A stretch of DNA of 64,000 bases from Verrucomicrobiaceae bacterium (GTDB lineage Bacteria > Verrucomicrobiota > Verrucomicrobiia > Verrucomicrobiales > Akkermansiaceae): positions 1-64,000 of the forward strand of contig JAIYDP010000106.1 in assembly GCA_027487435.1 (NCBI GenBank), in the 5' to 3' direction. Both the position numbers and the translations under genes were made by a program. The notes under the pieces were generated by a model. The model was not told the DNA's origin. It was given only the letters and a program-made list of their open reading frames with translations, and ran no database searches. Below are positions 9,330-53,700 of this stretch, piece after piece (the first letter of the stretch is position 1; each line of letters begins with the position of its first letter).

Positions 9330-9402
9330 TGGAGAAGCTGGGAGTCGAACCCAGTGCCTCTCGCATGCTAAGCGAGCGCTCTACCAAATGAGCTACATCC
9401 CC
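9330..9402 (-). tRNA. tRNA-Ala, anticodon AGC
   Basis: The complement reads as a full cloverleaf of 73 nt without an intron. It begins GGGGATGTAGCTCA, has anticodon arm CTCGCTTAGCATGCGAG, a T-arm with GGTTCGACTCC, and ends CTTCTCC plus discriminator A. The third base pair is G3:U70, the alanine identity element. Box A (TAGCTCATTTGG) and box B (GGTTCGACTCC) internal promoters are present. A run of six T follows within five bases of the 3' end, a normal RNA polymerase III terminator. Confidence 0.95.
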
Positions 9403-23292: not shown

Positions 23293-26200
23293 TTACAAAG
23301 AAATGTAAGCGTTTCGTTCCACCAGCTTCTGGGGGGTCTCATCCTGTGCACTCAGGGAAACCGCAACAAGCAATACGGTAGAAACAAACACCGAGAACAA
23401 GTGGTCGTCTCTGCCGTCTTCCTTCCAGAGGATACATGGCACTTCCACCAGATTTTCAGGTTGCTTATACAACCTTTTCGGGTCAGCTGAAACATGAAGC
23501 TAAGCTCCTACGTAGCCAATTCGGGAACAAGATGTAAGACAGGAACCAGTGACCTCGCTGTTGCAGGCCTTGTCGGGTCGAACGACAGCTTCGCATCCGC
23601 AGTGCTCCACGTGTATCCACCCGTCACAAACGACCCAGTGATGAAGATACCGGACTCAGGCGCAGTCTTCACCTTTCAATTCAGAAGAATCGCCCTCTGT
23701 CTACATCCTCCGCGTTGATCGCTGTCAACGACACGACCGGCACCACCTCGTCTACGCCGTGCGTCCTCGACGCCTTGCAAAAGTCCTCAAGAACAGCCGC
23801 TATGGCAGCTCGAGGGTCCGCGAGCCCTCCGAGCCAGAGCGCCGCCTGGGAGTGGGAAGTCAGCGAGGCGACTGCTTTGACGCGTCGCGCAACAGCCGCG
23901 GGCACGTCGGCGATTTTGGACACCTCCCATCGCATTGGGAGCCAACTCGCTGGCACGCAGCCCTGCGCGAGTGCGCTGTATGCGCTTTGCTGAGCCGCAA
24001 CCAGCGGCCCTCCCTTAGCAACTTGCATTCTCAACTCCTTTGGGCGTGTCATGGGGGTGGGGGGGGTATGGAGTACCAGCAGTAACTGGCGCGCCTTGTC
24101 AATAATGTCCAACAACGCAATCGCCTCTCGCCTGCGCGCGCGCTCAACCGCGCGCTCAGACTCTGCGGGCTCTGCAAAGACCCTCTTGGGCTGTGAGAGA
24201 GGACAAACAAAAGCAAACAAGTTCTGTTAACTCCGCAAACGCTTTGAGCGCTTCCTGCACTGGCCCGAGCTGCACACCAGGCTCATCGTCGACATGAGGG
24301 GGGGTCGCAGAGGGGTCGTCAAGGATGAGGCTGAGCTTGAACAAGTCGCTAACGAGAGTCAAATTCAAATCCGAACGCCGCTCCGCGTCGCAATTTGCGT
24401 TCAGCCCCAGCCGCTCGTGGCGCTCCGCATGCGGGAGAGAGTTGACGACGTCTCGCAGCGCTGCAAGCGACGACAGGCCCGCAGACGCCTTCGCACCGGC
24501 GAGAAGCTCCGCTGCGGTGGCGGAGGGGACGGCGTAGCGCGACGCGAGCAGCGGCACGATCTTTTGGTCGAATCTGTTAGTGAAACGCGGCCAGTACACG
24601 AAGCTGCCAAGCGCAGAGTGGAAGGACTTGACGTCGAGGTCTTTAACCTTTTTCGTGCCTGTGCGGTCGGCGCTCCGCTGAATGACCCGCACGGCCATCG
24701 TCGCATCCTGCGCTTCCACGCCCGACGCGCCGATGGAGCCAAACCTTCCAAAGCGCGCGCGCCCTGTCAGCACGGCATTCATTACGACCGCGCTGAGCGC
24801 CAAAGTGCGCCACTCTTTGTTCGGCAGCTCGTCGATGGCGTCGACGGACACGCACGCAGCGGACGCGAGGACGTCTGCGGCGAACGTGTAGCTGTCGGGG
24901 TCGTCGAAGATGACGCAGGACGTGTCGAGCATGTCGCTGCTGACGCAGCCTCCTTTAGAGCAGATAATGAGCCGATGCGCGGGGTCAATCCGTTCGGGGA
25001 ACGCGACGTTGAGCAACCGGCGGAGGAGGGAGGGGTTGGCGTCGGCGTCGAGGGCGATGACCCAAGAGCCATTGACCTGCGCCGTCGAGATGGTCGCCAA
25101 CGCTAGGTCTGCCGCAGCAGGGAGGAGGGACACGACATCGACTGCCGGCTTGCGGCCGCTGAAGGCGTTGGTGATGCGGTCGCGCAGGTCCGCGCTGCTG
25201 CGTTGGGTGACATAAACAACTGGCACGAGCGCGGGAACAACAGCCGCCACTTGAGAGAAATCTATTGGCGCGCGTAGCGCTGACACAAGGTCGGGTGAGA
25301 GGATGTCAGAGACGAAGAGTTGGACGGAGGGGTACATGCGGTCCTCCCGCAGCAGCCGCATGACGAGTAGCTTCTCAAAACGCGAAACTGACGACTCAAC
25401 GTCCGGCAGCGGCAAGCGCTCAGGCGCTTCTGCGTCCAGCAACCTCCGCCACGCGGTCTCGTTGCCCGCAAGGGAGTCGAAGAGCTTCTCGAGGCCCTTG
25501 TGGGACTTTGACAGCGCCAAAGCAGCAATTTGGACGGGCTGCGGCAGCCACTTGTTGATAGGCTTCTTGGGGAGGTCTTGGGCAGCGAAGGCGGTGGTGG
25601 TATTGGCGTTGACAAAGTAGCTCAGGGCTTCATTTTCTGTTAGCGCTGGGGCGCAGGCCACGCGCAGAGCCGCCAAGAAGGCGGCGAGGAAGCGTAAGTG
25701 GGTGGGGAGGTGGAGCGCAAACAGATGCCCCGTACCGACCAACAGCGCGCGCTTGATGACCTCCCCCCTCTTTGACAACGCTGCCGACGACGGGGGACCC
25801 GCCGCAAGCCACGCGTTTGCGACCGTGGCGGTAAACTCCGACAGCGACGGGCGCGGGATGACCCACCCCGCCCCAACTCCGCGAGCGGCTGCAGCGTGGA
25901 GGGCCTTAAAGAACTCAAAACTACGAGACGCATTTGCAATCAGCGGGCGCAGGTCGTCGTACGCCGCCAACTCAAGCCGCGCGACGCGCGCATGTGCGCC
26001 CACGAGTTGCCGCTTCGCTTCCTCCTCGCGCTTTTTAGTCACAGCGAGATCTTCCACGCGCGCCATGTCTTCGAGGAAATTGGGGGCGGACATTGAGAGT
26101 ACCCGCAACAAAGCGTCCCCAAACTCTTTAACCCGCCGCGACAGCGCGCAGACGTCACGCCGTGCGTCCGAGAGGTCTTTGAGCAACTCGCGCCGCTCAA

Positions 26201-29200
26201 TGTCAGCAGCGACGTGGAGAAACGCAAAGTCGACGCCGTCGGGGGTGAGCGCCATGTCGATGCGGTTGACGCATCGCGCGAATGCAGCGTCGTCGAGGAC
26301 AGACGGGGACGCTGCGGTGAGGATGAGGCTCACGCGTGGCGGGAGGTTGACCTTGCGGCGCCCCACGTCGACGACTGTCGCAGAGTCGCTGCGGCGCTCA
26401 ATGCGGAGCAACTGGAGGTCCACGACTGCGCGCAAAATCGACGGTGCGGGGTCCTCAACGACGATGGTGCGGCCGTTAGAAATCGCCTCATCGAGCGCGA
26501 GCTTGAGGGCCTCCTCATCCCTCATTTTGGCGGAGTCAAACAAGAAAGCAATATCGGGGTTGCGGCGCACCCAAGACACAAACACGCGCGCAGGGTCGAC
26601 GACGAAGGGCACCATGGCTGAGCGGAACGCAATGCCGACTGTCTCCAACGCCGCACGGTCTCTGAGCGTGCCGTCGATTTGCCAGCCCTGCAGCTCTGCC
26701 TCCTCCACAAGGAAGCTGAGCGCATCCAACTCTTGCGACGATCGAAGCGACGCAACTGAGGCGTCGCGCTGCACCCCGCCCACGAGGCGGTTGCGCTGAG
26801 GGAGCGGCAGCGACCCCCCAAAGCAAAGAAATGCAGCGACGGAGGCGGAGTCGGCGAGGACGGCTGCCAAGTGCTCGTCGCAGACTTCAGCAACCCTCTG
26901 CCAGTTTGTCTTCTCCATGGGCAGTGACGCAACAAGGGCATGTGACGCGTTGAGGCGGCGCTGGAGGTTGTCGCTCTCATGGGCGAGGGACTTTTTCAGG
27001 GCGGTGAGGCGCTCGTAGGACGTGCTGAGGCGGTCAAGCTCCGACTGGGCCTTTGTGTAGTCGACCGTGACAACACCAAGCTTTGTGTTCATTCTGCGGC
27101 AATTAGATGAAGGGAGGGTCAAGACACACTTGAAGAGGTTCTTTTGGATGTTCTTTAGCTCCGCTAGCCGAGGCTGGATGCCTTTGGCGACGTCGTGGTA
27201 CGCAAGGACGTTGCGCGACCAAATGAACAGGCTGCCGGCAATGCGGGACGCGCGTACGGCGTTCTCGAGGGTGAAGTCCTTCGAGTCCGTGTACGGAGCA
27301 AGGAGCTCAATCGTCTCCGCGTTGACGCCGTCCTTGTTGAAGTCCATCAACGTGCGGAGGAACGTGTTTTCCATCATCATCGACATGGCAAACACGTACG
27401 AGTCTTTGAACGTTTTGCGGCCGCCGTCAAACGACATCTCAAACCGCACGACAGGGCGCTGCAGCAGCAGCAACATGGCGTCGAAAACAAACTTGATAAC
27501 GAGGGGAGGCTTCTTCATCGACCTCAGCGTCGACAAGTCCTTCCCGCTCAATGACTTGACGGAGTTTTCTGCTTCCTCTATCCAAGGGACAGTCCCAGCC
27601 AACGCCTCGTCGATGTCCTTCTTCTTCGTGTCCAGCTCAGTCTGCAAGTCCCCCATCAGCTTGCGCTGCTCCGTCACTTCATGCCGCTTCCTCTCCGCCA
27701 CGATCGTACACCGCAATATCTCCCGCAGCATGTCCGCTGATTCCTTCGACGTTTTGGACAGCGCAACGGTCCCATTTTCAACCAGCTGAGAGGCGGAGTT
27801 AATCGCGTCCTCCGCACCCTCAAGCCGCTGCTGTGCCTTTCCGACCCGTTCCAGCAGCGCCGACAGCTTGTCTGCGCGGACTTTGTACAGAAGCACAAAC
27901 TGTGAGACGAAGTTGACGAAGTGGGCGACGCTGAGGAGGCGCCCTTGCTTGTCCATTACCGATCGCGAAGTGACGGCGACGGACGCCAACAGTGCAGCGA
28001 CTTGTTGCTTCGAAACGCCGTCGGACTCGAGTTTTGCGCCGAGCGCGCTGAGCGTGTGGCTTGCCACCTCTTCATACGCCTCGACCCCCCAAGAGTCGAC
28101 GATGCGGATAGTCGCACGATGAAAGAGCGGAAATCTGAGAGCGATGGATGCAAAGTCAACGTCTGAGCGCATGACGATCACGGCATGCACGTTGCCGCGC
28201 AGCCGCTTTGACAACATTGCCTTCGCTTCACTCTTTGTGACGCCAATGCCTCGCCGTGTTGTCGCAGCCACCGCTTGAATGTCCGCCAGCATCGCTTCAA
28301 TGTCTTCGGGTGCCACGAGGCCGCCCAACTCTCCCGAGGTCGACAACGTTGAGAGCACCCGGAGGTTGTGGTCGGAGATGGCGTGCCCGAAGAGAATGAC
28401 AGCGCAGGGGGAGGACGACACGCCGGCTCGAATGGCGACGGACACAACATCGATAGGGTCAGCATTGGCGAAGATGAACGGCTTGAGGCCAGCCGCGTAG
28501 GCTGTGGCGTATGCGACAGTCTCTACAGGGTCGTGAGCTGGGGCGAGGTACACGATAGGGGACGCGCTTGGGTCAGCCAGCGCAATTGAGGCATGGGCTG
28601 ATAGGATCAAGGACGAAGTCGAAACAGAGAAGGGAGCTAGCAGAAGCGGGACATGGCGGTTGTACTTCCGGATCGTCTCCATGGCGTCACACAGCTTGCC
28701 GCGGAGGTCCTCCAAGCTTCGAACGGCTTCGAAGGAATGGCCGTTCGGATAAACAAGTGCCCCATCTTGAGTTCCGTCAGGTTGCGACTTTTGGGCGATT
28801 GTGATCTTTGAATTGACAAACCACAGCGAGGGGGGCTGACTGGGGAAGCTCAGCACCGAGACGACCACGCGGGACACTGCGTCATCAATAAAGAGCCTGT
28901 CCCGATCCTGTTGAAGCTCGTCAGAATAGCAGCGGCGAGCAGCTTCAGCCCACATGGAGACAGAGGAGTCCGAGAGAGGGCGAGTGAGTGCGTGGTCACC
29001 AAGAAGAAGAGTGTGAGTGAGGATCCAGATGGAGTGGAGAGTTGTGGGGCGAAGGCGGAAGGGGGAGAGTGTTGTGGAGTCACGGATCATGGCGTGGAGA
29101 GAGACGGAGGCAAGAACGAGGGCAGAGATGGTGTTCGACGCTGGAGGAAGCTCTTTGGAGGCAATGACAGTGTGGACGAACTTTGAGAGGATTGTTGTGA

Positions 29201-32200
29201 GAGAAGGATCGGAGGGGTTGCCGCAAACAATAGGCGCGAGCAGCGACTGCAGCCTCGGCGCTAGAGTCGTTTTGCGCGACGTTGTGATGGCGGCGACAAA
29301 GTTGATGTCCACAAGCTGCTTCAATTCGCCGACTCGCTCCAGATGGTACAAGGACTTCTCGCCGACAGCCTGTCGCAGTAGCTCCACGGGGCAGTTGTTG
29401 GCCGACCCGGCGGGCAACGCATTCAAGTCTTCGACAAAAATAAGGGCTCGGCGATTTCCAAGAGGACCATAAACGCTTGAAGAGCGTCGCTCCAGAATGG
29501 AGTCCATGACCGCTTGAAGAGTCGCCGCTGTGTGGGACGCATCCGAAGGAAGCGTCAAGCTAATGCGATCCCGTTGGAGAATCGAATAAGCAGTGAAAGC
29601 AGCAGACTTTCCAACACCTGGAGGCCCAGACAACAGCGGCGGAATGTTGGCGGCGAGGAAGGCGTCGAGTAGGCCATGTGCTCGAGTAAGCTCCGCCGAG
29701 CGCACGATGAAGTGATTCGTCGACGTTGCGAACGACGAGGGGTGCACGACATTGTCCCATCGCTCCCACTCCCTCGTCTCATCACCGAGGAAGAAGTCGT
29801 GAAGACTATCAGATGGCCCAATGTCGGGCAAGGCGTCTGCATTATTGTTTGTCATGATCAGCTTGCAGAACCGCTTCCTATCCTCATCGCCCAGAGCTCC
29901 TGCAATCGTCCAGCAAGCTACAAACACGACGAGTCGCTGGAGCAGTGACTCCGTCAGCCCAGACTCAACCTCCGCAGACGCGGCGATGGAAGCTTCCAAA
30001 AGTGCTAGAAAGTAGCGAGCAAGGGCGCCAGTGCTGACTGAGAGGATGGGCGTGGCTTCGACAGATACGAAGTGCATGGCGTCATCGACAACCTTGACGA
30101 TGAAGGCGCGCACGAAATCGATGTCGGTGTTGCGGGAAAGCCACGCGTCGATAATGCCGCGCCACCCAACGGTTCGCTCAGATAGTGCGACAACATGCAA
30201 GCGGGCTGTCGCAGCTGGCGACAAGTCGGCGAGAGTGTTTGACTCAAACAATATCCGAAGCGGCGACCTGCCTCTTTCCCCAAGCGGCGACGTGAGTGCG
30301 TCTGAAGAGAGCAGAGGCAGGAAGAAATCAACAAGGGCTCCAGGGAAGGGTCCATCAAAAATTACAAAATTAGAGAGCGGAGACTTGCTTGACGCCGCAT
30401 CTCCTCGCCTCAGTAAAGCACCCACTAATCCGTCGGCCCATTCGCCAGAGGCAGATGCCTTGCCAAAGATTTGCTCTTGTGTCAAAGTCGAGGGGAAGAA
30501 TCGTGTGAGCAACATGCGGGGGGCTTTGACAGACTCGCTCACGCCAGCTTGCGTCCGCGGGCGCTTCGGCGACGTCGCCACACCAGATTTTGATCCCGCG
30601 AAGATGGTCGTGACCAAATCGATAGCGGTTGACTTCCCTGAGCAAGGGGGGCCGACAACTGCAACGACGTGGGAGGTGGTAAGGGCGTCATGCAGATGCG
30701 CGAACTTGATGACGGTGCTGCGGCTGGCGCAGAGATCGGTGCGGCGCAACTCGTCGGCAATGAGTTCCTCCGAGGGAGGCGTAAATGAAGGGCTTAAACG
30801 GATTCGGAATGTCTCCTCCAGAAGCGAAGAGAAGCGAGAGGCATCGTCGGGGGCCATGGCAGGAAGCATCAACTCACGGAGACGTAACATGACGAACTCC
30901 TCTTCGCCTCCAGCAAGAGAAGCGACCTCGCTGTCGCGATCAGCGCATTTTCGAACGACAGCCATTGGAACCGCCATGGACGAGCAGAACTGACGAAGCG
31001 AAGGCGTTTGATCTCCGAAGCAGTTGAGGATGGCGTCGATCTTGCGAGCAATGAGTCTCCCGCGTCTGAACCCAACAGCTGTGAGGATGATCTCAATCAC
31101 AACAGCTCGCTCCACAGGCTGCGCGAAGCACGTCCGCGTCACGATCCGCAAAGCATCTGGCAGCCGCACGATCTGCGACGCGTTGCATACATGGAGCGTG
31201 CCCAACAAGGCCGTATGTCGATCGACAGGAATGGAGAGTGTGTCCAATGTGAGCGATCGTTTTCCCTCTCGGAGAGCATAAAGGACGGCAGACACAGTAC
31301 TGGCCATAACAGAGAGAACGCCAGCGTCAGCAGCCGAGAGGCCCCCGAAAATGAGCCAAGCGCCCGTGGCCACAGCACTCTTGATCATTCGCTGGAATCC
31401 AAAAGCTGTGAGACCAACATAACAGTCTATTGAAACAACAATACGTGCAAGGGCACTCGCAGCTTCGCGTAGTACCGTTGCCTTTCCGCTTGAAGCAGCG
31501 CCTGAGATGGTGGCCATAGAAAGCCCATGCACAGCATCCAGCGCAAAGAGAACGGATCTGGAAGAATTTGGGGTGATAAGAGGGCTGGCGCGGGGGCTGA
31601 TGTACTCGTCCGCGTATTCGAAGGTCCCATCACCCCATCCGCACGAACAATCGTCGGTGTTAGCTGCGTAGTAGAATCGAGGCTGTCGAGCCCAATCGAA
31701 ATCTGACTTGTCGCGCACCTTTCGCTCGACAAGCTCTTGAACTCCATCCCTGACCAGGTGAGTGGTACCTCAAGACACAAACTAGACCTCTGCTCAATGA
31801 GAACAACAACAAAGGTCTCCGTCTTGATTCGCTCAAGCTTGTCGAGAGACTCAAAGGCTGCAGCTTTGTCGACCGCCATCTGCAGATTTGATGTCGTCTT
31901 CTTCAACAAGTTTGACATCGCATTCTTGTCCGTCCGAAACTGCACGAGAGCCCGCTCGCAGTCCTCCGTCCAACGGAGGCGCACCCCAAGCAGCGACACC
32001 TTTGCGCATGAGAACAAATAGACACAAATCATGTGCACCTGCATCGGGTATTTTCGATTTGTAGAGTCGAACAAGGAAGAGTTGAAATCCATCGATGCGA
32101 GGCGAATAAGAGACTTGATGGTATTCTTGATGGAAGCTTGCAATTCGCCAAGCCACGCCCCACCACTCTTCGCTTCGGGGAAAAACAAAAGATCTACAGT

Positions 32201-35200
32201 CTCACCATCAAGGCTGACGATTTGCCGCACACGACTTGAGTCGACGCGATCAAACGCGAGGGCATGGACACCAGGGAAGAGCATTGAGAGGTAAGGTTTG
32301 ACTGCTGATGGTGAAGCTGATTGCGAGACGACATTGAGGAGGTCACCATTGCTGAGGAAAAAGTATCTTGGAAACGTCAGACGCTTCGTGTCCAAGTACG
32401 TGGACAGCGACTTGTCGATATTTTCAAATTGCTCCCTCAGCGAAGGTAACACAACGTAGAGCCCGTCGGACCCACAACAAATGTCCAAGATCTTACGCGT
32501 TTGATACGCCTTCCGGACATTCTTGAGGTAATTCTTTTCAACCTTTGCAAATCGTTTCCCCTCAAGCGCTAATTGCCTGGAGCCGTCGATATCATCGAAG
32601 AGGCCCTTCAGCCGGACATACACAGTTTGAACTGCAAACCAGAGTTCAAGAGAAGCTTCAACTTCAGCAAGCCGTCCCACCCATTGCGCCAACTCCGCGA
32701 AAAAGGGTTGGGACTTCGTCACTTCCGCAAGCAACTGGCCCAGAGTGACTTGGGTGGACGCAAGCCGCTCGAGGATGTTGCTCACGTCACTGCCGCTGAG
32801 CAAAATGTTACCCCTGTTCTTGAAGTCGTGAAAGTTAAGAGTCTCTTCGCTCCACTCGGCTGCGATGCGAGCCAACTTGCGCTCGATAATCGCTTCCTTG
32901 GATGCAACGCTCGCAACGTCGTCAATCACAGAGGCAAACGCAGGGAGATCAAGATCCAGTAGATGTCCAAGCGTGAGCGACGAAATATCCTTTCCCTCTC
33001 CAACAGCTTGCATGCCGAGCACCATCAAATAGTGCCGCGATCGCATTGCCTTGTTGCCAAGCTTGCGGAGACATGGCACGGTCTCCGAGAGCGAACTCAC
33101 GAGCTCTGACAAGCTGCTGTACACCGAATGGTCAGATGCACTCTAGAGGAAGGTTAGTTAAGTGAAGGGAGCATCTCACTACCTTGGGAAGAGAGGCGAG
33201 GGCGAGCTCAGTGTCCAGAATAGCTTGGCATATCGCGTCAGCCCTTGACTGAAGAGCCGACATCGGGATGGTGCGAATACTCTGCGACATGTCGTATGTC
33301 TTCACATACAGCGTGAAAAGAGGTTCCAACACGCCAATCAACTTGGCGACACGAGCGAGATCAGGACTGCGGGTGTGGCCGAGGTTGACTAATTCTTCCC
33401 GATCGTTTAAAGTTCGCAGGCGGCCGGCTAGACCATCACACACAGTCTTGTGTCGTGACGCACGAGAAGCTGCTTCATTGATAGAAATCTCAGGTTCCAG
33501 AGGCCCAGACTGATCAAACTCGCGGACGAATCGTTTGATCTCAATCAGGAGAGAAGTTGAGTCGTTGCCAAGAATACGCTGCAGCTCCGGCTTGCGCTTC
33601 GCAATCGCTTCGTTTGTAGGCGGCACCGCGTTGAGCAACTTTGACCACATCGCCTGCATGTCCTCGACTGTTTCTTCCTCTTCTTTGGTCAAGCGCACTT
33701 GATATCGTGACAGCAAGTTCATGATATCTCTTACGGGCCAAAGCTTGGCTTCAAACTCGGCATCTATCCGCTTGATGTCGGCAAGCAGTCTGACCACTTC
33801 GTCAAGGTCGTTAAAGTCTATAATCGACTTGCTCAGTCGCTGAGTTGCAAATAAAACGAACTGCTGCAAAGTGGATAATTCCATCCTTGCTCGAGAAAGC
33901 AAAGCCCGCGAGAACAGGCTCTTCCATGCCGCCGCCTCAGCTCTGAGGGAGTTTTTGATTGGAAGCGTCTTGAGAGATATGCAACCAATGTTGTGCACCG
34001 GCGCTATGCCGAGAATCTCCTTCTCAACGTCAGTGTAATGTCTCAGAACCTCTGAGAAGTCATCCATGGATGGGTTGCGAGCAAGAAACAGGTCATACGC
34101 TCGGCTCTTGTCTGTCGCCCAGATGTGATCAAATCGGCGGAAGAGCTGCAAATGCTCTGTGACATTCTTCTTGACCTGCTCAATGCTGCCGGTGAGGAAG
34201 AGGACAACCTTCACGATTTCCTTGTCACCTGCCAGCCAAGTGAAGAAAGAAAAGTCTGAAGCCTCCCCGAGAGCGTCCACTCCGCCATGAGTTGGGTCTG
34301 CCCCTTTTGCCCACCAGTTGATGTCCTTTGTAGACTTGAGTACAAGCGACGCCACTTGATTCACTGCCTCCTGTATCTCCTCCAAACTCGGTGTCAGCGA
34401 CACGTTAGGAACAGAGAGCTCGACGTCGACTTCAAAGAAGGGATGCTCGACGAAGAGGAAGCCACCGCTCATGCGGGAACCAAGCCTCCGCTTCATAAGA
34501 AACAGAGTGTTCTTGACCGCCGTTCGCACCGCCACGTACGTGAGCTTGCCGTAATGCTCCCTCAGATGGAACAGTTCATTCTCGTCGACGGTGTTGTGTG
34601 GTGGAGGAAGACCGTCTCGGAACGTGACAAGAACAGCAACCAAGTCTGATAGTGCCCTTTCGATCTCAAGCGAGCGCTGCTCAATAATTCTTGTCCGATC
34701 CGACACGAACTCGACCTGCTTCGAGATGAATTGCTGCAGTGTCCACGTTTGATGGGCAGGGAACTGAATCAGAGCAACCTTTGCTATTTCTGTGAGGTTG
34801 CGCTGCACGCGATGCTCAATGATGTTGTACAGCGCATGGAAAAGGTCCGATAGTCGAGCAACTCCGGCGCGGATAGAAGACACATAGGCATCGATGTTCA
34901 TGGACTGCCAAGTGAGGGATTGAAGGCCCGGCTTGATGCGCTTCTCAACATCGACAATGTGAGCCTTGACAAGAGTCGCAAGGGACGGGTCCACCCGCTG
35001 CATGATTGTGTCAAATTCTCGCAGGGCGTGCTGAAGAATGCTGAAGTGGTGCTTGAACTTCTCCTCCTGCACGGCAATCGAAAGAGCATGCGGCGGCACC
35101 TCAAACCCCATGCGCTGAAGGCACCGGGTCTCCCTGATGAGCCTCATCACCTCAGGATCGAAATTTACAAACAGCCGGCCACCCTGCTCATTTAGTGCTC

Positions 35201-37467
35201 GCACGCGACGCGGTGTGCGTACCTGTGGATGGCGCACCAACAGCGTTGCCTGCAAGCCCGTACGCGCAACGTCAACGGTTCTTGTCCACGCAGCCAGCCA
35301 CATGTTTTCGAATTCGACCAAGGCACGGTTGATTCGATTGTACAGGCGAATGCTCTTGATGTACTCCTGCCATGTCAGCGTGCGTACAGGCGGACGAAGA
35401 CCTTGCTCTCGGCAAACGCGCTCTTCAAAGATTTGCACTTGCGCATGGGAATTTCGATTCGACGCATGAGCGTGCGAGCCCAGGCGATGTTAGACGCGAC
35501 GGGAGGGACGTTTCGGACGACTGGGGGGTTCTTCTTTTGTCGCTCGTAGAGGTCTTGGACGTCCTTCAGCTCGGAATGGAGGCGGTGGAAGAGGTTGTTG
35601 TAAATGTTGTGCACGTCCGACCGCATGACACTCTTCCGCACCACCTCTTCAAAGTTCTCAAACAATTCAAAAGCCTCCACGGCGGACGCGACCATCTTGA
35701 TGCTCTCTGAAAGTGACGTCACTACCACCGTCTCAAGCTCCGACACGTTGCTTTGAAATTCGACGAAGGACCGCTCAAACTCCCCTGTGGTCAAGTCAAG
35801 GGGGTCTGGACAATCTCCAATCAACCTCGCACTCGCGACTTTGAAGGCATGAGCGTACGTCTCAATGCTTTCAATCGAGAGCTTCACAAGACTTTCGAAC
35901 TGTTGAGTCGCTGTGAAATAGTCTCGAAGCTTCAACAATCTCCGCTCGAAAATGTCAAATCTCTGAACACTTGCAGCCTCAGCAACCTCCGACTGCGGCC
36001 GCGACTTGAACGCCGCCCGAAGTTTGTCCTACCCAAGTGTCAGTCACTTGTCAACTTGAGGACGAACTCTCAGCATGTAAAGCTGGCCAATAAACACGCT
36101 TTTGACCTTGCCAATCGTCTTGATGCGCTCGAGAGTCTCCGCAACGTCCTGGTGCCACACACCAACATCGCCATTCAGATCTCGCTTGCAATTCAAAATG
36201 GTCATGTTGGCAATCTTGAGGAACAACGCAGATATCCGGTCGGGGGCACTGTATAATTTTGCTACAGTGCAGAGCGTGAAGACCATTGACATCAAAGACG
36301 GGAGGGTGTCAATAATGGAGGACGGCGACCCTGAAAGAAGTGGCTGCATGCATTTCTCGAGAGCGGTCAGATACTTGAGATTGTCCTTCGCCTCGTTGAG
36401 CGCCTCCGTCAGCATTGTGTCCACCTGCTTCCAGCGCTTCAGATGCTTCGATTTGATGTTGTTCAACACTCCCAGAGCTGCCTTGCTCTCTTTCAGCTTC
36501 AGCTCTTCTACGATGCAATTCAGCTGAACGACTCGCTGCCTCCAAGCAGCCAACTCATCTGCGACAGACAAGTCGTCTACCGCACCGCCGTCTCGGACAG
36601 CTTCGCTCAGAGCGGACTCAATCACGGACATCCATTCAACGATCAACTCTGGACATATTAACCCAGTCAACGCGAAAGTGACATCAGCGCCCCCACAACC
36701 ACTTACCTTCGCAATGATCAGCAACCGCATGGTCTCCGCGACCCCCTCCCTTAAAATTGAGCCTCGGATCGGGTCGGCGCAAGATAACGCTGTTGCTTGG
36801 GGCTTCCGACGCATGCGTCAAAGACGTAGTCAATGCGCTTGCACAGGAGAGGAAGTCCCTAAAGCTGGCTCATCAATGACTCTTCACAGCGGAACAAACC
36901 TCTCCTCGAACTCGGAATCAGCGGGGGGGACAATTCGCTGCGAAAGAGAAGGAATGATCATGCCAAGGACATCGTTCATCGAATCTAATGCAGGAAAAGC
37001 AAGTTCGCCCCAGCTAATGAGCTCGTGGAAATTTAAGCTGTCGACTTCTCCGGCTGCAACGCGGATGAAATAAATGGCTGCGCCACGCACTTGAACAGAG
37101 TCTGCGTCTGCAGTGACTATCAACTTGACTGGCTCTGTCGATAATGATGATGGAGACTGAGATCTGTCGATGTCGAATTGATTACTCGACATTTCAAGAG
37201 ACATCGTCGGACTCTTCACGTCGTAGACCTATGAAAGTCAAAAAATGCAAGAGAGGCCATTACGGGCACATAGATGATTATCTTCGCAACGTTTCCGAGG
37301 AGAAAATCTTTAACTTTTTGTGCAGTTGATGTCGAGACCAGATGATCAAGGACGTCAGGAACCGGAACGTCCAAAACGGCTGCAGTAATTCCTGCTAAGG
37401 CCTTTACGGCAGAATCTGATGATAGTGACAGTGAGAGCTTCAGATCTCGAGTCGCATCAGCTTCCAT
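23293..37467 (-). CDS. Divergent dynein heavy chain with degenerate AAA1 site
   Basis: Twelve proposed exons give about 4590 residues: 37467-37270, 37228-36888, 36858-36845, 36789-36056, 36028-35402, 35366-33183, 33142-31788, 31749-24219, 24190-24077, 24037-23705, 23672-23512 and 23473-23293; frames close. The N-terminal tail and linker are recognisable (LELWFAVQTVYVRLKGLFDD; YLDTKRLTFPRYFFLSNGDL). AAA1 reads SGAASSGKAT with IFGGLSAAD in place of the Walker B FDEFNR. AAA2 has GPPCSGKST. AAA3 has GPPGVGKSA and IFVEDLN. AAA4 lacks a P-loop. The antiparallel stalk with its PPLVIKFVFDAML microtubule-binding entry is intact, and AAA5, AAA6 and the C-terminal domain follow. Dyneins are microtubule minus-end motors. 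This one is too divergent to place as axonemal, IFT or DNHD1-like. One 39-nt intron (24038-24076) is in frame and stop-free, so it is only probable. The exon-3 region (36790-36887) is the least certain. Confidence 0.88.
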
Positions 37468-41756: not shown

Positions 41757-44700
41757 TTAACAGAAAAAATGTCGAAACGGACCATCTTCGGCAATCTTGA
41801 CGAAGTCTTTGTCTTCGGATGCATTCTTTGGTGCGCGGGTTCCGTGAGGGGGAAAGTAGGTTTTGACAGGTGCATTTGACTTCGCCTCAAACGTAATCTC
41901 TGCAATGTCGATCCTTGCACTCGTCAGGACGTGGAGAAAGAGAGATTGCTACTGGCACATCCTCGCCGGCACGAAGTAGCCGTCGGCGTCAAAAGAGTCG
42001 CAGTCATATTTCCACAGCGCCAACGACCCGCCTGAATCAAGAGACACCAGGTCACTTGAATTTGGGATTCTGCACATAAATATGACAGGGTCCCTGCGTA
42101 AGTCAGAGGAAATGAGCAACAACCCACTTGTGGCCGATCATGTACTCAAGCTCGGGTACCTTACCCTTGCGCTCCACTTGCGGAGGGAGTCCAAAGATAC
42201 AAAGCTTCGTATCTTGAGTGTTCTGCTTAACGATTGCACCGCCACCCATTCCGAGAAGAAACGAGGGTTGCTTTCCACTGACGGTGAATGACGAGTGAAA
42301 CTCAAGCGAATATATCCTCGAGTCAGCTGCATTCGACACGTTGAGGACTGACACGGGCTCGGTCGTGGACACTGCCTTCTTGACGAAATAGCGGAGGGAC
42401 TTCGATGACGACTCAGCATCCAGGGGCTTCATCTTTGGGGGCGGGTTCCTCTCTACCACTCGCAGGATGGAAGGGTACGTGATTAACATCAAAACCTCGG
42501 GAGGAACAAAGTCGCCCTCTTTTGACATTACCTCAGCGCCGCGAGGATGGCAGAGAGTCCACATGCGGATGCATCCGGTCTCATCGAGAGTGATCAGATT
42601 GCTGCAATCCATAGCCCATCGAATGATAACGATTGAGGGGTCCTCAAGAAGGCCCTGCCGCAGAATCACAGGGGGCATGAAGCTAAGGTCAAGAACCCAC
42701 AGAGACCCATTGTGGGGAGCAACGGCGAGAAATCGTCCGTTCGGCGAAACAACAACTGACCGAAGGGCCATGCCACTCTTTGCGATCCGGACGCGAGTTG
42801 GAGTGAGAACAAACGATCTGAAATAAGCCTCTTCTTCTGACAAGGCCTCTGGGGCAACGGAGACAGACTTCGTGTCAACAACGCGAAGCACCGGGATTCC
42901 CCCAAAAGACTTCTCCGACGAACCCTCTTGTGTGCGGCTGTGCCAGGACACAAGGGTCTTCTCGACAAGCTCTTTCATGGGAGCAATACTACTGGACGAC
43001 GAGTCCGAGGCAGGAAGCGCTTCGAGAAGCTGCTCCATCACAGTTTCAGTCAATTTGGCCGTGTCGTCTCCATCCATGGCAAGCTTCTTCATTTCTGGGT
43101 CATTCAGAACTGTCTGAACAACCTCATTGGCCATGCCAACAACCATGTCCGCTGACCCTCCAGCGACATATGACTGCATCGCATCGCTCTCAACGATCTT
43201 TGTGACAACTTTCTGGACAAGTCCATCCGTTGGAACGACACTGTCCAACGAAGCAAGGGTCTTCAAAGTCTCATCCTGAATCAATTTTTCTGCGACAAGC
43301 TTTGCAAGACCCGAAGCAACTTGTGTGGCTCCAGTATTCATCAAGTTTTCGACTTTAGAGTCCTTCAGAGCTGCATCAACTGCTTTTCTGATGACGGTCT
43401 CTGCCATGGCTGCACTTAACGCCTGAGTAATGCCCTCAATCTCTGTGTCATTCTGAACAGCTGCCAAAACTGTCTCGACAGACTCAAGCGAATCTTCTGG
43501 CAGCGACTTGAACTTGTCGTTGATCAGCTTCGCAAGTGTGACGATTTGATCTTTTGGCAAATTTTCGAGACTCTGCTTCGTATCAGCTGGAGCTACTGAG
43601 TTGATCAGAGCCACTGCAGATGCCTCGCTCAATCGATCTCTCATCGAAGGGTCGGCGTGACAAACTCGAACAACCTTTCCAACCAGCTGCTCCAGAACTC
43701 GAGCGCTTCCCCCTCGAGCATGCTCTCGCAGGCCGGGGTTAGCGGGAATCATCTCAGAGAGCTGCTTTTTCACCGACTCTTGCACGTCCTTTTTGACAGC
43801 ATCCATGGCGCCTGTAAGTGCCCCATGTCCTGGGTTCGTCGGAGCAGTCGCATCTCGAAATGCCTGCTCGATGAAGTCGTGGTCTTCTTCCTCATGGCCC
43901 CGCTGCTCCTGAGGGTTTGACGCCACTGGCCTCCGCAGTATCTTAAATATTGCCTCCTGCTTGAGGACGTCTTTAGCGAAAACCATTGCAAGCTTGTCCA
44001 AATTATTGGCCGGCTCAAAGGCCGTCAGCTTGATGTCGTCGCGCTTTAGAATCAACTCCACTATTTTGTTTGCGAGTTCAACGATGATGGGATCATCGGC
44101 AGAGGGCTCACACGACGGGGAATTGTCCAGCACAATAGCAGCAGCATTGTCGAGCGAAGTCGGGGCTTTTTGCGATGCAACTCTTTTCCACAAATTGAAA
44201 GTTCCGATGCAATTGGAGAGAACTTCCCGCACGACTTTGCGACTCAATTCCCTCAACCCCGTCCTCAGCAAAACAACTGCCCCGTCTGTTGCAATGACAC
44301 CGTCCACGCAATTGAGAGACAGCTCGGCTGCAACAAGAGGTGCGCATTCCAAGACATTCTTCTTGATCTCTTGAGATTGCAATATCCGCTGAGTCGCTTG
44401 CTGCTTCAAAAGCGTCTGAATGGCTGCCATCGCTCGAACATGCAAATTAGACATGATTTGCTGGTTCTGAACCATCCAGCGCACGATTGCTGACAACAGA
44501 CTGCGCCGAGAAGATTCGGAATCGGACCCCTTGTATTTTGCTGAGAAAAACTTCTCGACAAGCTCGAACACGAAGCCCTCAGACACAACGTCGCGACCGC
44601 CCTGCTGCTGGATTGCAAACACGGAAGTCTCGTCTGAGAGAATTGCGTGGGTCATCTCTTTCAAGAAATCGGCAACTTTGAGGTTTGCCGCAACTTTTAG

Positions 44701-47700
44701 CTCAACTTCCAGTCGAGTGTCACGCGAACACTTTTCCCGCACACTATTCGCTATCCACATGGACTTCCGGTCAGCAAAGAGATTCATCTTTCGCCTCATT
44801 GCAAAATCTTTGGAGAGCGCTGCGAAAGCAATGTCGGTTGAAGGAAGAAGCGATGCATCCTCATTGTCTTCGATGTCGACAGCAACGTGACTCACGCATA
44901 TGCGAGTAATCGCGTGAAATATGCTCACTCGCCTATGCAAACGTGATTCTACCTCAGGCGCGTACAAAACGACGAGTTTGTCGAGAGAAGCATCAACAGA
45001 GGCCTGGCTGTGAAGTGAGTCTACAAAGGACATGACGTCGAGCTTCTCATGAACATATACGGAGCAGCAAGTGAGCAGTTCGCGTAGAATCAATACTGGT
45101 ACACAAGGAATCATATCCGAGGGCTTCAAAGTCGTTGACATCAGCTTCAGCAGGGACTGCTCCACAGCCTCAGAAGAATCCTGTCGTGTGACCAACCGAA
45201 GTGCGTTGTGCTTCAGGAAAAGTGAAGAAGAGACGCTCACAAAATGACTCAACGATCGGGAGAGCACCTCAGAGGATTCCTCGGGCCATGAGGACCTCAA
45301 AAGCTCTTGCTCAGCTTTGCTCGAGATGACCAGGGAGAGCGCAGACTCTCCCTCGATGGGATGAGGCCCGCTTGAGAGTAAGCTGGTTTTAATGTCATCT
45401 GGCGCCGCGTGTTGAATAAATCCTCCGAAATCAACAATCAAGGTGCAGAGGGAGTGCTCGGTGTCCAAATCAACAAACTGTTCCAGACTCGGAGCCAACT
45501 TCATGCAGACTCTCTGAACGAGCTCCATCCTCAGCCAACCCATGAAGTCGACCTGTCTCAAGAACGTAGCGCTGGGATTGTCAACGGTGCGTTTTAATCT
45601 AGAGTGAGGCATCATTTCTAACTTTGCAACCTCGAGCACATTCGACACAACATCGGCAACGTTCTTTTCAAAAATATTATCAGAATTCGCCTTTCCTCCG
45701 AATTCGGACTTTGCAAGCATGAACTTCTTTCTTGGATCAACCTCTGTATTCAGCTTCTTTGCAAGTGCAAGCATCGTTTCTGCTCGAGAGCGCGCCACTG
45801 TCGCACCACATTTGATGGATTCAGTTGCCAGGCATGAAGAAACGGGACTGATAGTCAATGCAGACAAGCGGTCCATCCTCTCGAGGAAATCGAACAAAGC
45901 TGCGATGTCCTCAACGCAATCTGGTGGTGACAATGAAGCAGCAATGACATCATTGAGCAGAAACAAGTTGCCAGTGGTGAGGGAATCCAGAGAATTGACG
46001 GACTTGATAATTCTCTTGTTCAGAATCCTATCTAGAAGGGCAGAGAGGGCACCCTTATTGATTCTGTCGAATGTATTCAACTGCTCAACACCAAAACAAT
46101 ACTCTGCGAACTTTAAAAACTTCTCCGTCGTCAGCATCGCTCTCAGCTTCTTGTTTAGAACGGAGTCCTTAAACGCAACAAAACCAAGGCCATGGTCGAC
46201 AACAAACACCAAAAAACTTGTCATTGCAGCGCCAACAAACTCCACTTGGCTTCTCCGAGGGAGCGCAAGGGACGTCGGGTCCAACAGCTTTCGTTTGAGC
46301 TTTTCAGAAGCATCCACCTGGATCCTCTCCCGAATATCAGCGGCGACTAGCTGAATGAAAGGATGAAGTAGCCAGGAGTCCATCGAGATGGGGGTCCTTG
46401 GGCTGCAAAGGGATAGCACAAGCCGCAACAACGATGTCTGGGCGGTGCTTTCACTTGCTTGACCCGAAATAAATGTGCTCAGTTGTGTTCCGACATGTTT
46501 CAAACTCGAATGTGACGCCCATTCATCAGCAATGGAGGTAGCGATTTCTAGATCCGCAATAGAGTTGGCCACCTCATCGCCCATCAGTGCGGCGAAGCGG
46601 GGCAACGAAAAGTTGGCAATGTCGTGAGGGAGTCTTGCAATGCCATTGTTTCGGATGTCGGCAATTTCTTGGAGATCCCACATTGACTGATACCAAACAA
46701 GACCCAATGATCTCTTCAAAGAAGCACCCACAGAGAAAACAATGGACTCACTGTCAGGAACGGGCCCTGTTGACGGCTCAAACGTAGGATGAGCTACAGC
46801 AAATGACCCCGCAACTGAAGCCAACACGTCGAACAACTTCGATGTAGTTGGATCCTTCTGAAGTGCACTCAAGGCAACAAGGGAAGGAATGCCGTGATTC
46901 GCATGCGGTTTTAGCGCACACTGGACTTGGGCCAAAAACGCGCAAGACCCGAGGAGTCGCTCGGACGCTACAAATTCAACGCTTCTCTCTGGAGATGCTT
47001 GCATCAACGTGGTGAGGCAAGATTCAAAGAGGGAGCAGCTGACATCTTGCAACAAATTATGTGACGCCTCCACAACGTTCCACCGCTCAAGAACATCATC
47101 GATGGTTGTGCTGGAATCAGGGACAAAGTAGCCTGACTCACAGGCGCTCTCCAAAACAGCAAGGACGAACTTCTGGTGCCCAGTAGATCCCGTCCCAGAT
47201 CGATGCAGCACGTCCGCAGCCAATTTCTTTGACGAATCGACCTCAAGTCGATTCTTGAGTTCGACAATGCTGCTGGTGCTGCTTGTAGAGGACAAAGATT
47301 TCTGAAGTTCAGAGGCAATCGAAACAGCTTCTTCCTGAAGAAGCCGCTGAAACTTTCCGGCACACACAATCCTCATTACTCTAACTGCAGTTCTGACCTT
47401 TCGAGCAGCTTTGCCGATGCATTCCTTCGCATCCTTGCCAAGTTTCTGAAATGCATGCTTGACTGTATCGACGACAGAGCGAGTCACAGCTGATTTTGGA
47501 TAGGCATCCCCAAACTTTTGAGCCAGTAGACGGGCGGTTGACAGCACGCACTGCGCGGAAAAGTCAACCAATTCTTCCAGAGGTTGGCACAACTCCCACC
47601 AATCTGCCTGAAGAGCTTTCTGGCAGCTTGCAAGTGTTGTGTTTGAGAGCGCAGCGACCTCCTTCAGGTGAAGCGCATGGAATGCGTCGACATCTTCAAT

Positions 47701-50700
47701 AGAAAATGCCAGGACAAACCAAACTACATCAATGACATCAAATTCACGGATTCGCCGCAGCGATGCTGCGCATGACGTCTGAACGTTTGCTTCGAGTGCA
47801 AGAGCGCATTCAATTGACAGGAAGTAGGATGCAGACGCCTTGAGAGAGTCCGCAGCGGGGGTCGACAAGTCCTTCAAAGAAGTCAGGGTCGCAACAGCGT
47901 CTGGTGGCATTGTCACGGAGCTCACAATTCTTTCTGAGTATTGCTTCAGAACAGCAGGTGACACATTAAGACCAGCTTGCATCTGCTCAGTAAGATGATG
48001 AACGTCGGCAAGTTGACGAATATGAAGCTTCTCGACAAATGCGCATCGAGCCAAGTTTCCAAGTATTTGATGGACAAAAGGCTGACTTCCAGAACCCTCG
48101 GATGAACTGGTTCGCGCTTCTTTTCTTAGCAGGTACGTTAAGTAGCCCCATACCAGAGAGCTTCCCAACGCTTTCTCCAGGGAAAGCTTCCTCACTGTTG
48201 ACAGAACTTCACGCTCTGTCAACGGTTTGGTTGAAAATCGCTGTTTGGAAATGCAATCCAACACCAGGGACGACAATTTTGCTGCATTTTCGTCTTCCAT
48301 TGGAAGAACCTGTCCAAACAATGTCTCTGCCACAGATCTCATATCTATAATACTCTTTTGTGGCTGCTTTGCTCTACGAGCCTCAAGTAACAGGCCTCCA
48401 AACAATATCTTCGATAAGAAAGGTGGCGCTAACGTCGACATCGTCTTCAGCTGCGCATCACACTGGGAAGCTGATTGTTTGTCGAAGCTACGTGTTGCAA
48501 GGTCTTCAAGCACACCAACAAAGCAGCACGACGCATATTGAGAACTCGTATCTGCTGATTTCTGAGCGGAAACCCAGGCAACGCAAACTGCAACCAAATC
48601 CAAGTGGCTCCAAGAATGGAAACTGAGTGCTCTTACATGTTGGTCAACAAGGCTAATGAGGGAAGAGCACTCCGGTACAGCATGACATCGACCCACTAAA
48701 TCGATGGGAGAGCGAACTTGAACGGTGTTCAAGTCGACCACGTATTCTTGAAGAGCGTTTTCGATTTCCTTCTTAAGATCGTCGAGGAAGTTCCTTGCGC
48801 CGACGTCAACTTTGCAGCCTTCGATAAGGAAGGACTGGAGGAGAGAAACTACGAATTGATCCCCCAGCAAACACAGGTCGTTTTCAAGGTGAGATAGCCT
48901 CTGCATCAGATGGACGCTCGCTGGCACAGGAGACATGTCGGTGAACGACATAGAGGAATCGATGTCGGCTATCCTCAAGGTAATTTCCCGTAAACAAGGG
49001 TCCCCAGCTCCGTTCAGCAATCCTGATGACTCGAGAACTCGATCTGCCAGGTAGTTATATACACCAGCCCCCAGTCCGATCCAGGACCTAGCTTTCAAAG
49101 GAATTTTCATTTGCAGTATGTCCTTCGTGGTACTTGCACGACAATAATCGCTCAATCGATGGGGGAGCCTCTTCATCACGACATCAGCAAGTAAACAATT
49201 TGCGCGACTTCGACGCCAACCCAACTTGAAATTCAAATAAGTAAACATATCCATGGCAATCGCGTCAGACGGAGTTGAACTGGAGATCAAGTTTTCCAAA
49301 GATGCACAATACTTACTCTTGGCATCAGCTACTTGAAGCAAGAACTGTTGCTGAAACGCTGAGCATATCTTGAAAGAACAAGTCTGCCGAAATGCAGAGA
49401 CCACAAGGTTCCGCAAACCGGCTTGGCCAACAGGCGATTCAATCAAATCGCGAAGCCTAGAGCATCTCCAAAGGTATGTCACGTCAGAGAGCATAGATGA
49501 AGTGAATGTCTCTGCAAAACTGCTACAAACCTCGATGACCTCAATAGGAAATGGATCATTGCCAGAGATCTTATTGATAACTTTGCCCAGAGGTACAATA
49601 AAATCAATGCTGACGAGTGACTGCTTCAGCAAATTGTTTTCAATCACAATGGACCTAATCTCCTTTCGAATTCGGTCGGTCAAGTTCTCAAACGACACAG
49701 AGCCATTCAGCCGATCAAGAATAGCAAAGGATATGTAGCAAACGACAGCAGAAGGAGAAAGACCCACATTCAATACTGGCAACGATTTGGATAGTAATGA
49801 CATCATCTCCACTGACAACAGAGCAACCGTAACTTCAACAACTTTTTCAAACAAGTAAACCATCCTCCAGTCATCTTCCAGCTGCCATGGAGTACGCTGA
49901 TTGTAGTACATTGCGCAAACAACGTCAAATGCGTTCTCGGAGAGAAGCTTCGTTAAGCAAGACCGATGAACATGGCGCAGCAACTTGGAACAAGCTCTGG
50001 CTTTTTGCTCACCCAAGTCGCTGCGACGAGATATGAACGCCCGTAACGGCTCTACACTCTCCTTGAACAGACGAGAAAACACCTTACTATCCCACGCCAA
50101 GCGTCCAGCCGAAGCTGCTTGAACAACGGAAGAAAATTGCGGTGCGGAATGAACAAAGTCATGGACAAATTTGACATAGTCAGAGCAAATCTGATCGCAT
50201 TCGGCGGCAGCCGCAGCTCTGAATTCAGGAGTATCAACGGCATGAGACGAAGCCTCGATGAGAGCATGGATAGAGAGGAAGTCATTCCCGAGTTTGGAAG
50301 AATCAAAGTTCAACCGGAGAAGGTCGCCCAAGGTAGCAGAATCTGGTAGTCCACGCAAGAGAAAGCTCAGCGACTCCTTCAGTTGAGAGAGCGACTCATG
50401 GCTCTGCAACCTATCGAAGGATGCGTCTCTGACAAACAATCGCTCGCAACATGCAGCGATTTGGTCCTCTGAACTTCCTTCGTGGACATACCATTGGGCA
50501 CTACCTAGAGCGACAATCCTTCCAAACAACGCCGCTGTCTCCAGAGGAATAATCGAATTGTTCTCCTCTACATCGGCAGAACCTCCAATGGCCTGAACAT
50601 CAGAGAGCACTGAGTCCAAGATGTGAGATCGGAAGGACATTAGCGGTGGCAACAATACCCAGGGGAGCTCGAAGTAATTGACATAGCGCTCGACCGACGG

Positions 50701-53700
50701 CACTGCAGCCATGGTATGCCGAAGCAAAAAACTGTCGAAATCAGCGTCGGCCCCAATCATGGAGGTCAACTCAGCGGCAACATCTTGCACGTACTCGCTG
50801 TCGGATATGTCAAGAGTTTTTCTCAAACTGCTATCATCTGCGAGCGCCTCTGAGACTTCATGAGCAACAGCCTGGATTTCAGATTGCGACGGGTTCCGCT
50901 TGCTTGCTTCAGACAATAGTGCCCGCGATTTCGACATAGGGTCCAGGCAGAGCCCAGTCGCCTTGATCACAATCTCTCGAACAAATGCAGAGGAGCAAGA
51001 CTGTGTTCGAGTCAAGAAAGCTGGGAGAACAAGACAGTCCTCCAGCTGCTGAGCGACCTCCAAATCATGCAAAAGCGCGCCGATCTTCATCAGTTCTTCT
51101 TCAATGCTCGGAGACTGCTCAGTTTTTAGTCGCTGCAAGTGGAGGATGGGATCAGATTCTCTGAAGAACCGACGTCGTGCAAGTACCTTTCCCAATGCAG
51201 TTGACGCTTCCTGAATCATTGCCGCAACTAAATTGCTTACTTTTGAGCCCCTACGGTCGATCATGTGCCCAAAGATGAAATCCACATCGCACTCAACCTG
51301 TTGGGAGCTGCTCGTCTGAAGAATGTCTAGAATGCAGCATTCGGCACGAAGTCTGACAATCGAGGGGTTTGCATGACGACCTGCTGACAGCAATGGGGAC
51401 CGCACAGCCTCATTGAGAGCAGCAACAGACAGATTTTCAGCGACGCGAGTTGTAACGTCCCTCAAAACTGCCTTTGATGTCCATTCAGAGACCATGCGAT
51501 CGTACACCTTCTCGGCAGGAAATTGCAGCATATCATCCTGAGAGGAGAGGGACAAAGTAACAGCTTCGTCCGTGAGAATCACACAGCAGATTTCGCGCAC
51601 TAATGCCTGCACTAACGTGGCTCGGCGCAGCGTCCTCAGCACCAAATCCTCTGCCAAGGACTGCATATCCGCGTCAATTGAGGCGGCTGTGAGCCGTTGA
51701 AGGGCAGAGGACAAGCTCGCTCTGAGCGCGAAGTCATAGTACATGGACGGCGTCGGACTTGAGGCTCCTTGGAGAAGTAGCAACAGCGAATCGCTTTGAA
51801 GCTCATTCACAGCGGCATCTACGTCCTTTCTGACAGCGTCCTTCAGGTGGTCCAAACTTTCGAGAGCCATCTCACGAATAGATGCTCCAAATTGCGAAGA
51901 GAAGAGCAGTGACGATACTCTCTTTTCAATGAGGCAGGATTTGACAATTTTGAGAGTTGCGAAAACTGACGGCAGAGATGATTTCTGGGTGACAGCCAAC
52001 TCCAGCCTCCGCATTAGGGGCATCAGCGCTGCGTCTGCGGGGAGGTCTGGTCGCAGTAGCTGGCTTGCAGTTTTCTCTTCCACAATCAGCTCTTCGATGA
52101 AGACAGCCGTTTGGTCAATGATCGCCTTGCTGTCGTTGCTGACATCAAAAGTATCAACAGCTTCCTTGAATGTCGCAGCTAGAGCTTCTTGAATCGCTCT
52201 CTTGTTCTTTCTCAATTCAGCTAGCCTCAACGAAGATCCCCGAAGCTTTAAAAACACTCGAATCACAGTCTTTGCAAGGGCCTCTTGCGCTTCAATACTT
52301 GATATGGGGCCATCATCTGCAAAAAGCCGCGAATCCTGGAGTGCTCGCAAACGCGTTCCCTCCCTCAACGAAACGGCCAACTCAGCGAGCACAAAACTTC
52401 TCCACGGCTCACCCTGGAGCGCGTCGAGAGGGAGGCCATAATTGAGAAGCCCACATCTCATGATGTAAACGAGCTTGTGGGAAGAGAATACCTCCTGCAA
52501 ACTCGCCTTTGCGTCCAAGACGATTGAGCGCGCGAACTCCTCTGCGGGTAGGGACAACATAGTCGTAAGCACCTTGTCTGCCCGAATTTCCCTGAGACAA
52601 TCTGGGACGGTGGAGCCCTTCCATCGCTCCCTTATGTACGAAAACGATGCCAATATAGCACCGCTTGCTTTCTGAAGGACGCGCCGATGTTTTCTTGGAC
52701 TGGAGCAAATGGTTATCAACAGGAACGTGAAGACATTTCTAATACAAAGGCGGCCAACCTCGGCAGCCGCGTCGCGAAGTGCAGGCTCAAGATTTGTCCT
52801 TTCGGCGAGGGCGGACACCGTGGCTTGAGGGGAGAGACCGGTGCGACAATTGCGCAACAACAGCTGGATATGAAGATACGCCAGCGCTGACAAGGGTCCG
52901 AACTCTGACTTCACGAATGCATTGAGGAGATCTTGTGACGAACATGACGCCCTGATGCCCTTCGATAAGGCAAATCCAACAACTTCCAGGCCGACACAAG
53001 TGAGAGATGTGTCGTCGAAGTTGATTGTTAGAGAGACAGCGCCCTCCTGAAGAACGCGCGACACGGAGTTATTCAACTTCGACGCCAATTTGTGGATGAT
53101 AGGGAAAGCAAGGGAGCTGAGGATGGGGCTGTCGAAGGGACGCGCGGTCGATGCAGTCCAGTCACTATCAAAAGACAAGCAGCTGAGGAAAAAGCGCTCA
53201 AGTTCATCATCTTTCGCAGAGCAGCTCTTCGTGATCAAAGCAATGATGGGATTCAAAAGATCGCTGTGAGCCAGGATTGACGAATTTAATTGCACCCCGT
53301 CCACCGACACGGCGTCATCGACGATGCTGTCTAAAATGTTAGAAACCTCCATGCTCCTCATCTGCAAGCCCTTCGCCCTATCTCTGTCGATGCGCTGGCC
53401 CAAGTTGCGAAGCCTCATTTCATCAGATGCAATAGGCTTCAGTGCCTCAGACAGAACAGAACAAATCAATGTTTCAATTGCCTTATCCAAAACTCCATCG
53501 ACTTCAGGATCCGTAAACGACCTTTCCATGCGGCTGAGAAGCTGGCCTTTCTTCAAAAAGGTACCAAGAGCACGAGCTTCTTGGCAAAATGCCTCAGCTG
53601 CAAGCAGGAGCTGCAAGGATTGAAAATTCTTGAGAAAGACGAAGGAGACGTCTATTCTCTTCGTCGAAGCCAGCTCCACCCTCTCAACATCAGAGACTGT

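Follow-up and report, generated by a model that had tools for sequence, protein, structure and literature searches.

According to a review (PMC4879348), AAA1 is catalytically complete in every dynein isoform: magnesium is contacted by the Walker A Thr together with the Walker B Asp, the Walker B Glu activates the water, and the sensor-I Asn places it. In three papers, an empty AAA1 corresponds to the microtubule-attached state with a straight linker, and microtubule release is largely due to ATP at AAA1 (PMC4879348; PMC7215579; PMC6249098). Arms still assemble with Chlamydomonas gamma or beta chains that have no motor domain, as one study reports for the laboratory truncations oda2-t and oda4-s7 (PMC12338079). 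The same study describes a third outer-arm heavy chain of Diaphoretickes (Chlamydomonas alpha), additional to beta and gamma, whose motor works and whose N-terminus carries a kelch beta-propeller and Ig in place of DHC_N1 (PMC12338079). DNHD1, a heavy-chain gene that is maintained without belonging to the active dyneins, is the nearest exception in kind to a complete AAA1 set; its description calls it an orphan and a ghost gene that is possibly turning into a pseudogene (PMC8754002). Searches of the open-licence literature turned up no outer-arm chain in which AAA1 is dead.

The heavy chain described here, ascribed to a single-celled eukaryote, is encoded on the minus strand of a 64,000-nucleotide stretch of DNA (the window), carried by contig C266 of a bin of 9.39 Mb and 506 contigs. 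It shares with the outer-arm gamma chains (Chlamydomonas gamma; DNAH5/DNAH8; Tetrahymena alpha) the tail, the DYH2-5-8 coiled-coil, the linker, six AAA modules, the stalk, and the microtubule-binding domain (MTBD). In contrast to them, it has lost the catalytic residues of AAA1 and the P-loop of AAA4, and its ring (AAA1 to AAA6) is 17 to 25% identical to that of a canonical gamma chain.

As modelled, the whole gene spans positions 23508 to 37467, with a candidate start Met at 37467 and tentative N-terminal exons above 36817. Between 36817 and the stop at about 23508, removal of six introns yields a joined reading of 4,369 residues, which is near the full length that a sequence-only reading of this DNA had claimed. 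The tail begins with two exons matched by DHC_N1, at 36056 to 36817 (profile positions 7 to 186, with an inferred exon end) and 35402 to 36028 (profile positions 205 to 410), followed by an exon at 33183 to 35366 that carries the end of DHC_N1 and the DYH2-5-8 coiled-coil found in gamma/DNAH2/5/8 tails. The DHC_N2/linker exon lies at 31788 to 33142. These exons would be separated from each other and from the motor by GT-AG introns at 36029 to 36055 (27 nt), 35367 to 35401 (35 nt), 33143 to 33182 (40 nt), and 31750 to 31787 (38 nt). Reading the C-terminal domain requires two further putative GT-AG introns, at 24191 to 24218 (28 nt) and 23673 to 23704 (32 nt), which flank an exon at 23705 to 24190; the last exon, GIFITGSFVTGGYTW..., closes at the stop (23508 to 23672). 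All splice sites were placed from the sequence alone. The six introns are very short (27 to 40 nt), and their 5' splice sites follow only a weak consensus, a trait that could assist in identifying the organism. The motor occupies a single open frame at 24156 to 31769, with 2,537 amino acids from AAA1 through the AAA6 lid. The open frame is not due to chance: from composition, a run of 2,537 codons free of stops is expected with a probability of about 10^-34, whereas each of the five alternative frames contains 35 to 122 stops.

The chain is assigned by descent to the outer-arm gamma (DNAH5/DNAH8) class of axonemal dyneins, on which tail, linker, motor, and tree agree. DHC_N1 (PF08385) matches three exons with 132 to 138 bits each, and DYH2-5-8_CC (PF25007) matches the tail with 34.1 bits against a cut-off of 27. 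The best match of the tail exon is the Chlamydomonas outer-arm gamma chain (402 bits); further gamma-class chains come next, and DNAH10 reaches 152 bits at most; the motor frame likewise finds the Chlamydomonas gamma chain first (503 bits; DNAH5, 445 bits). A tree of the tail end and linker (IQ-TREE PMSF, 14 rows) was built from nine genes of the bin (the window chain, C214, C430, C355, C201, C269, C167a, C167b, and C332) and five PDB references, with the bin genes C207, C66, and C130 left out. It groups the window chain with CrGamma, DNAH5, 9fqr_I3, 9e5c_7a, 9y6s_5X, C214, and C430 at a support of 96/99, with an unsettled inner order and a long terminal branch of 1.68 for the window chain. 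The gamma-type DHC_N1 tail and dead AAA1 of this chain set it apart from the third chain of Diaphoretickes. A DNHD1-like form had been proposed from the sequence, and both heavy chains do stand outside the active set, DNHD1 being called an orphan (PMC8754002). That proposal was rejected because the best matches of tail and motor, the linker, and the tree all point to the gamma class in a comparison that held no DNHD1 sequence, and orthology with DNHD1 is very improbable.

The AAA1 module (30783 to 31607) was compared with the canonical gamma chains C214 and C430 and the canonical chains C269 and C167b of the same bin, in a motor alignment that omitted C332, C167a, C207, C66, and C130. Where canonical chains have GPAGTGKTE, the window chain has GAASSGKAT, part of a Walker A remnant (SGAASSGKAT, 31476 to 31505) in which Ala replaces the Thr after the Lys. 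FGGLSAAD stands in place of FDEFNRI, within a Walker B remnant (LIFGGLSAAD, 31326 to 31355) that lacks both Asp and Glu. On these two losses, the sequence-only reading had judged AAA1 to look dead, and its letters and positions proved correct; in addition, the sensor-I Asn of the canonical NPGYAGR is replaced by His. Walker A, Walker B, and sensor I, all complete in an active motor, are thus each defective here. Given the roles of these residues in binding magnesium and handling water, ATP hydrolysis at AAA1 of this chain is very unlikely. The Pfam family AAA_6 still matches the module over its full length (1 to 327), with 121 to 127 bits, against 463 to 529 bits for the six full-length canonical domains of the bin and 436 to 500 bits for every one of the nine full-length matches from eight further bins with eukaryote contamination. 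An AlphaFold model of AAA1-AAA2 reached a mean pLDDT of 44.8, too poor for use.

That an assembly error, a missed exon, or a frameshift conceals a canonical AAA1 is conceivable for a metagenome contig from a mixed bin. A missed exon or frameshift that would restore FDEFNR was looked for and none was found, since AAA1 lies within the single 2,537-codon frame. Further, AAA_6 matches from end to end, the window contig carries no second AAA_6, and the independent genes C355 and C201 display a similar loss, which leaves an artefact of this kind with a negligible probability.

The other motor modules differ in what they retain. AAA2 (29748 to 30782) keeps its P-loop (GPPCSGKST), the FDGP motif, and the arginine-finger region SPAATAR, and AAA3 (28746 to 29747) keeps both its P-loop (GPPGVGKSA) and its Walker B (FVEDLN), so that the two P-loops described as intact from the sequence are so. 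In AAA4 (27891 to 28745), the P-loop is gone, with APAHDPVET in place of the canonical GVGGSGRQS, a loss that the sequence-only reading had missed. The stalk helix CC1 (27558 to 27890) has 111 residues, exactly the canonical length, and is followed by an MTBD of 118 residues (27204 to 27557). PF12777 matches the stalk and MTBD with 59 bits, and the preservation of this region, claimed before, holds. CC2 (26784 to 27203) has 140 residues by the boundaries chosen versus 128 in canonical chains; it is apparently 12 residues longer, and the stalk registry could change as a result. AAA5 (25938 to 26783) and AAA6 with AAA_lid_11 (24219 to 25937) were located by Pfam match and alignment. The C-terminal domain, which had also been described as preserved, is present but divergent, with 20 to 26% identity and, as aligned, about 35 residues fewer than in C430 and C214.

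The divergence of the chain is uneven when it is set against that between the two canonical gamma chains. The distal DHC_N1 region is 41% identical to C214, versus 30% between C214 and C430; the corresponding values are 30% versus 30% for the tail coil and 36% versus 50% for the linker. Within the motor they are 22% versus 72% for AAA1, 25% versus 48% for AAA2, 20% versus 42% for AAA3, 17% versus 45% for AAA4, 22% versus 40% for CC1, 25% versus 47% for CC2, 24% versus 47% for AAA5, and 21% versus 43% for AAA6 with the C terminus, whereas the MTBD reaches 47% versus 54% and is the best-kept stretch of the motor. The module that is normally the most conserved, AAA1, is therefore among the most changed, and the MTBD is kept nearly as in working chains, which the sequence-only reading had not noticed. 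Among 1,225 sliding motor windows of 118 columns, the top ones lie on the MTBD (0.47), with the best elsewhere at 0.32 and a median of 0.22. Counted over the columns that C214 and C430 share, with only these two canonical chains as the yardstick and with columns taken as independent in the Fisher tests, the window chain retains 40 of 64 in the MTBD, compared with 51 of 196 in AAA1 (p = 3e-7) and 357 of 1,167 in the remaining aligned motor (p = 4e-7). The tail retains 50 of 90 and 60 of 111 such columns, and the linker 99 of 200. A pattern of this kind would be expected if selection had maintained assembly and contact with the microtubule but not the ATPase.

The same measurements bear on three other readings of the gene. 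The first is a gene in decay, a pseudogene in the making. The long tree branch fits such a course, as does the GC content at second codon positions, which is higher in AAA1-AAA3 (0.49 to 0.51) than in the MTBD (0.36) and suggests relaxed constraint in AAA1-AAA3; the description of DNHD1 offers a possible precedent (PMC8754002). Decay is nevertheless improbable in view of the 2,537 codons without a stop, the six readable GT-AG introns, the conserved MTBD, and a distal tail that is nearer to C214 than C430 is. The second holds that the N terminus is needed for building the arm while the head is inert ballast, as a natural counterpart of oda2-t. The tail is indeed the best-kept part overall, and the truncated Chlamydomonas chains build arms (PMC12338079). 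Such a role leaves unexplained the much better conservation of the MTBD compared with the remaining motor and the persistence of about 2,700 motor residues in frame; it is unlikely, if a little less so than decay. The third is a tether that can be switched, in which AAA1 is dead and AAA3 still binds, and perhaps splits, ATP, alone tuning the affinity for microtubules. It is in line with the P-loops kept in AAA2 and AAA3 and the Walker B of AAA3, where AAA1 and AAA4 lose theirs, and with the shared columns retained in AAA3 (46 of 129) against AAA4 (25 of 123; Fisher p = 0.008). On the other side, AAA3 as a whole is no closer to C214 than the 20% given above, and coupling to the stalk is described in the review as running via ring closure at AAA1 (PMC4879348). 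We regard this reading as rather doubtful, with somewhat better prospects than the tail-only role.

The reading that we favor, with modest confidence, is that this gamma-class chain, its AAA1 being dead, takes its place in arms and works as a clamp that grips microtubules but makes no power stroke. The gene would be spliced as modelled and expressed, and the tail would bring about incorporation of the chain into an arm on the A-tubule. Because motor-less Chlamydomonas chains assemble, an arm with an AAA1-dead chain can be built; these mutants resemble the window chain in having an assembly region and no working head, but in the truncations the head is missing (PMC12338079), whereas here it is full length with a conserved MTBD. 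Stalk and MTBD would then grip the neighbouring doublet. Since microtubule release and the power stroke require ATP at AAA1, the chain should remain strongly bound, with an empty AAA1 and a straight linker, unless nucleotide at AAA3 alone tunes its affinity. It may thus serve as a passive tether or brake alongside active dyneins, which makes the anchoring role suggested from the sequence plausible. The ring has decayed throughout, and a ring that is merely relaxing is a possible alternative. The LC1 light chain binds the MTBD of gamma chains, so that conservation of the MTBD might be owed to a light chain instead of tubulin.

Canonical dyneins, which the sequence-only reading had advised looking for in the same genome, are present in the same mixed bin. 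C430 and C214 are canonical chains of the gamma class, C167a belongs to the DNAH2 class and C332 to the DNAH10 class, and AAA1 is canonical in C269, C167b, and C207. Dead AAA1 sites in beta-class chains of the bin had escaped that reading. C355 has the Chlamydomonas beta chain as its best match (1,115 bits; outer-arm beta class), and its AAA1 has no Walker A and carries WIEMQLTV in place of the FDEFNR stretch. In this chain (L048:4079-15082, plus strand), the tail is readable, the MTBD can be recognised, and stretches resembling P-loops occur in AAA2, AAA3, and AAA4. C201 is of the beta class by its match to the Chlamydomonas beta chain (581 bits) and has a degraded AAA1 with GPGGGGKKE and LDGLSNAP; it is ended by the contig edge (L049:2-4873, minus strand). 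The two group at 100/100 in the tree, which contains no other beta chains, and are about 26 to 28% identical to each other. Searches of the partial bin with the tail and AAA1 of C355 found no canonical beta chain. A second outer arm that generates no force and acts as a tether or brake, with AAA1 lost and the tail kept in both the window gamma chain and the beta chain C355 (as well as C201), may be entertained tentatively as an unlikely possibility, for chains that share, with C214 and C430, a mixed bin that is not demonstrably one species. A gamma-class AAA1 fragment on contig C130 (L050, about 3180-3501, minus strand) is 76 to 78% identical to C430 and interrupted by stops; adjoining a kinase gene, it is probably a piece of a pseudogene.

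The dynein family AAA_6 was searched for in 38 genomes, namely the bin and the 37 prokaryotes most closely related to it, and occurs in the bin alone; the bin is therefore a prokaryote MAG into which eukaryote contigs have been mixed. It contains at least 10 dynein genes, and its completeness and contamination figures give no sign of its many eukaryote contigs. An attempt to assign the contigs to separate organisms from their GC or codon use fails because composition spreads about as widely within the window, where GC3 among genes runs from 0.54 to 0.82, as between contigs. Searches of the bin that were meant to count eukaryotes gave no match for an 18S pattern or for S3Ae, and a Prp8 search gave none either, with a positive control that was equally without signal. 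No relatives of the window chain were found in the viral contigs scanned. A scan of genome contigs with canonical AAA1 patterns, by which dead-AAA1 chains could not be picked up, returned 10 dynein loci in other bins. These dynein-encoding contigs (L053-L062) are filed under MAGs of bacteria, among them Planctomycetota, Bacillota, and Elusimicrobia, and several come from rumen samples. Elsewhere in the window, an unbroken frame of 5,345 codons at 42103 to 58140 (minus strand) has no Pfam match and would encode a giant orphan protein. A protein kinase domain fused with beta-helix/Chlamydia-PMP-like repeats is encoded at 450 to 2765 (plus strand) and again on contig C130 (L050:4308-7784, minus strand). 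The sole RNA-family match in the window is a tRNA-Ala (AGC) at 9330 to 9402 (minus strand).

An AAA1-dead outer-arm chain that keeps its tail and its grip on microtubules would separate the pulling of the dynein head from its holding. The role of unpowered cross-bridges between doublets has until now been approached via motor-less mutants. If the reading favored here is true, it would become testable whether such cross-bridges have a selected role in beating, in holding, or in stiffening the flagellum.
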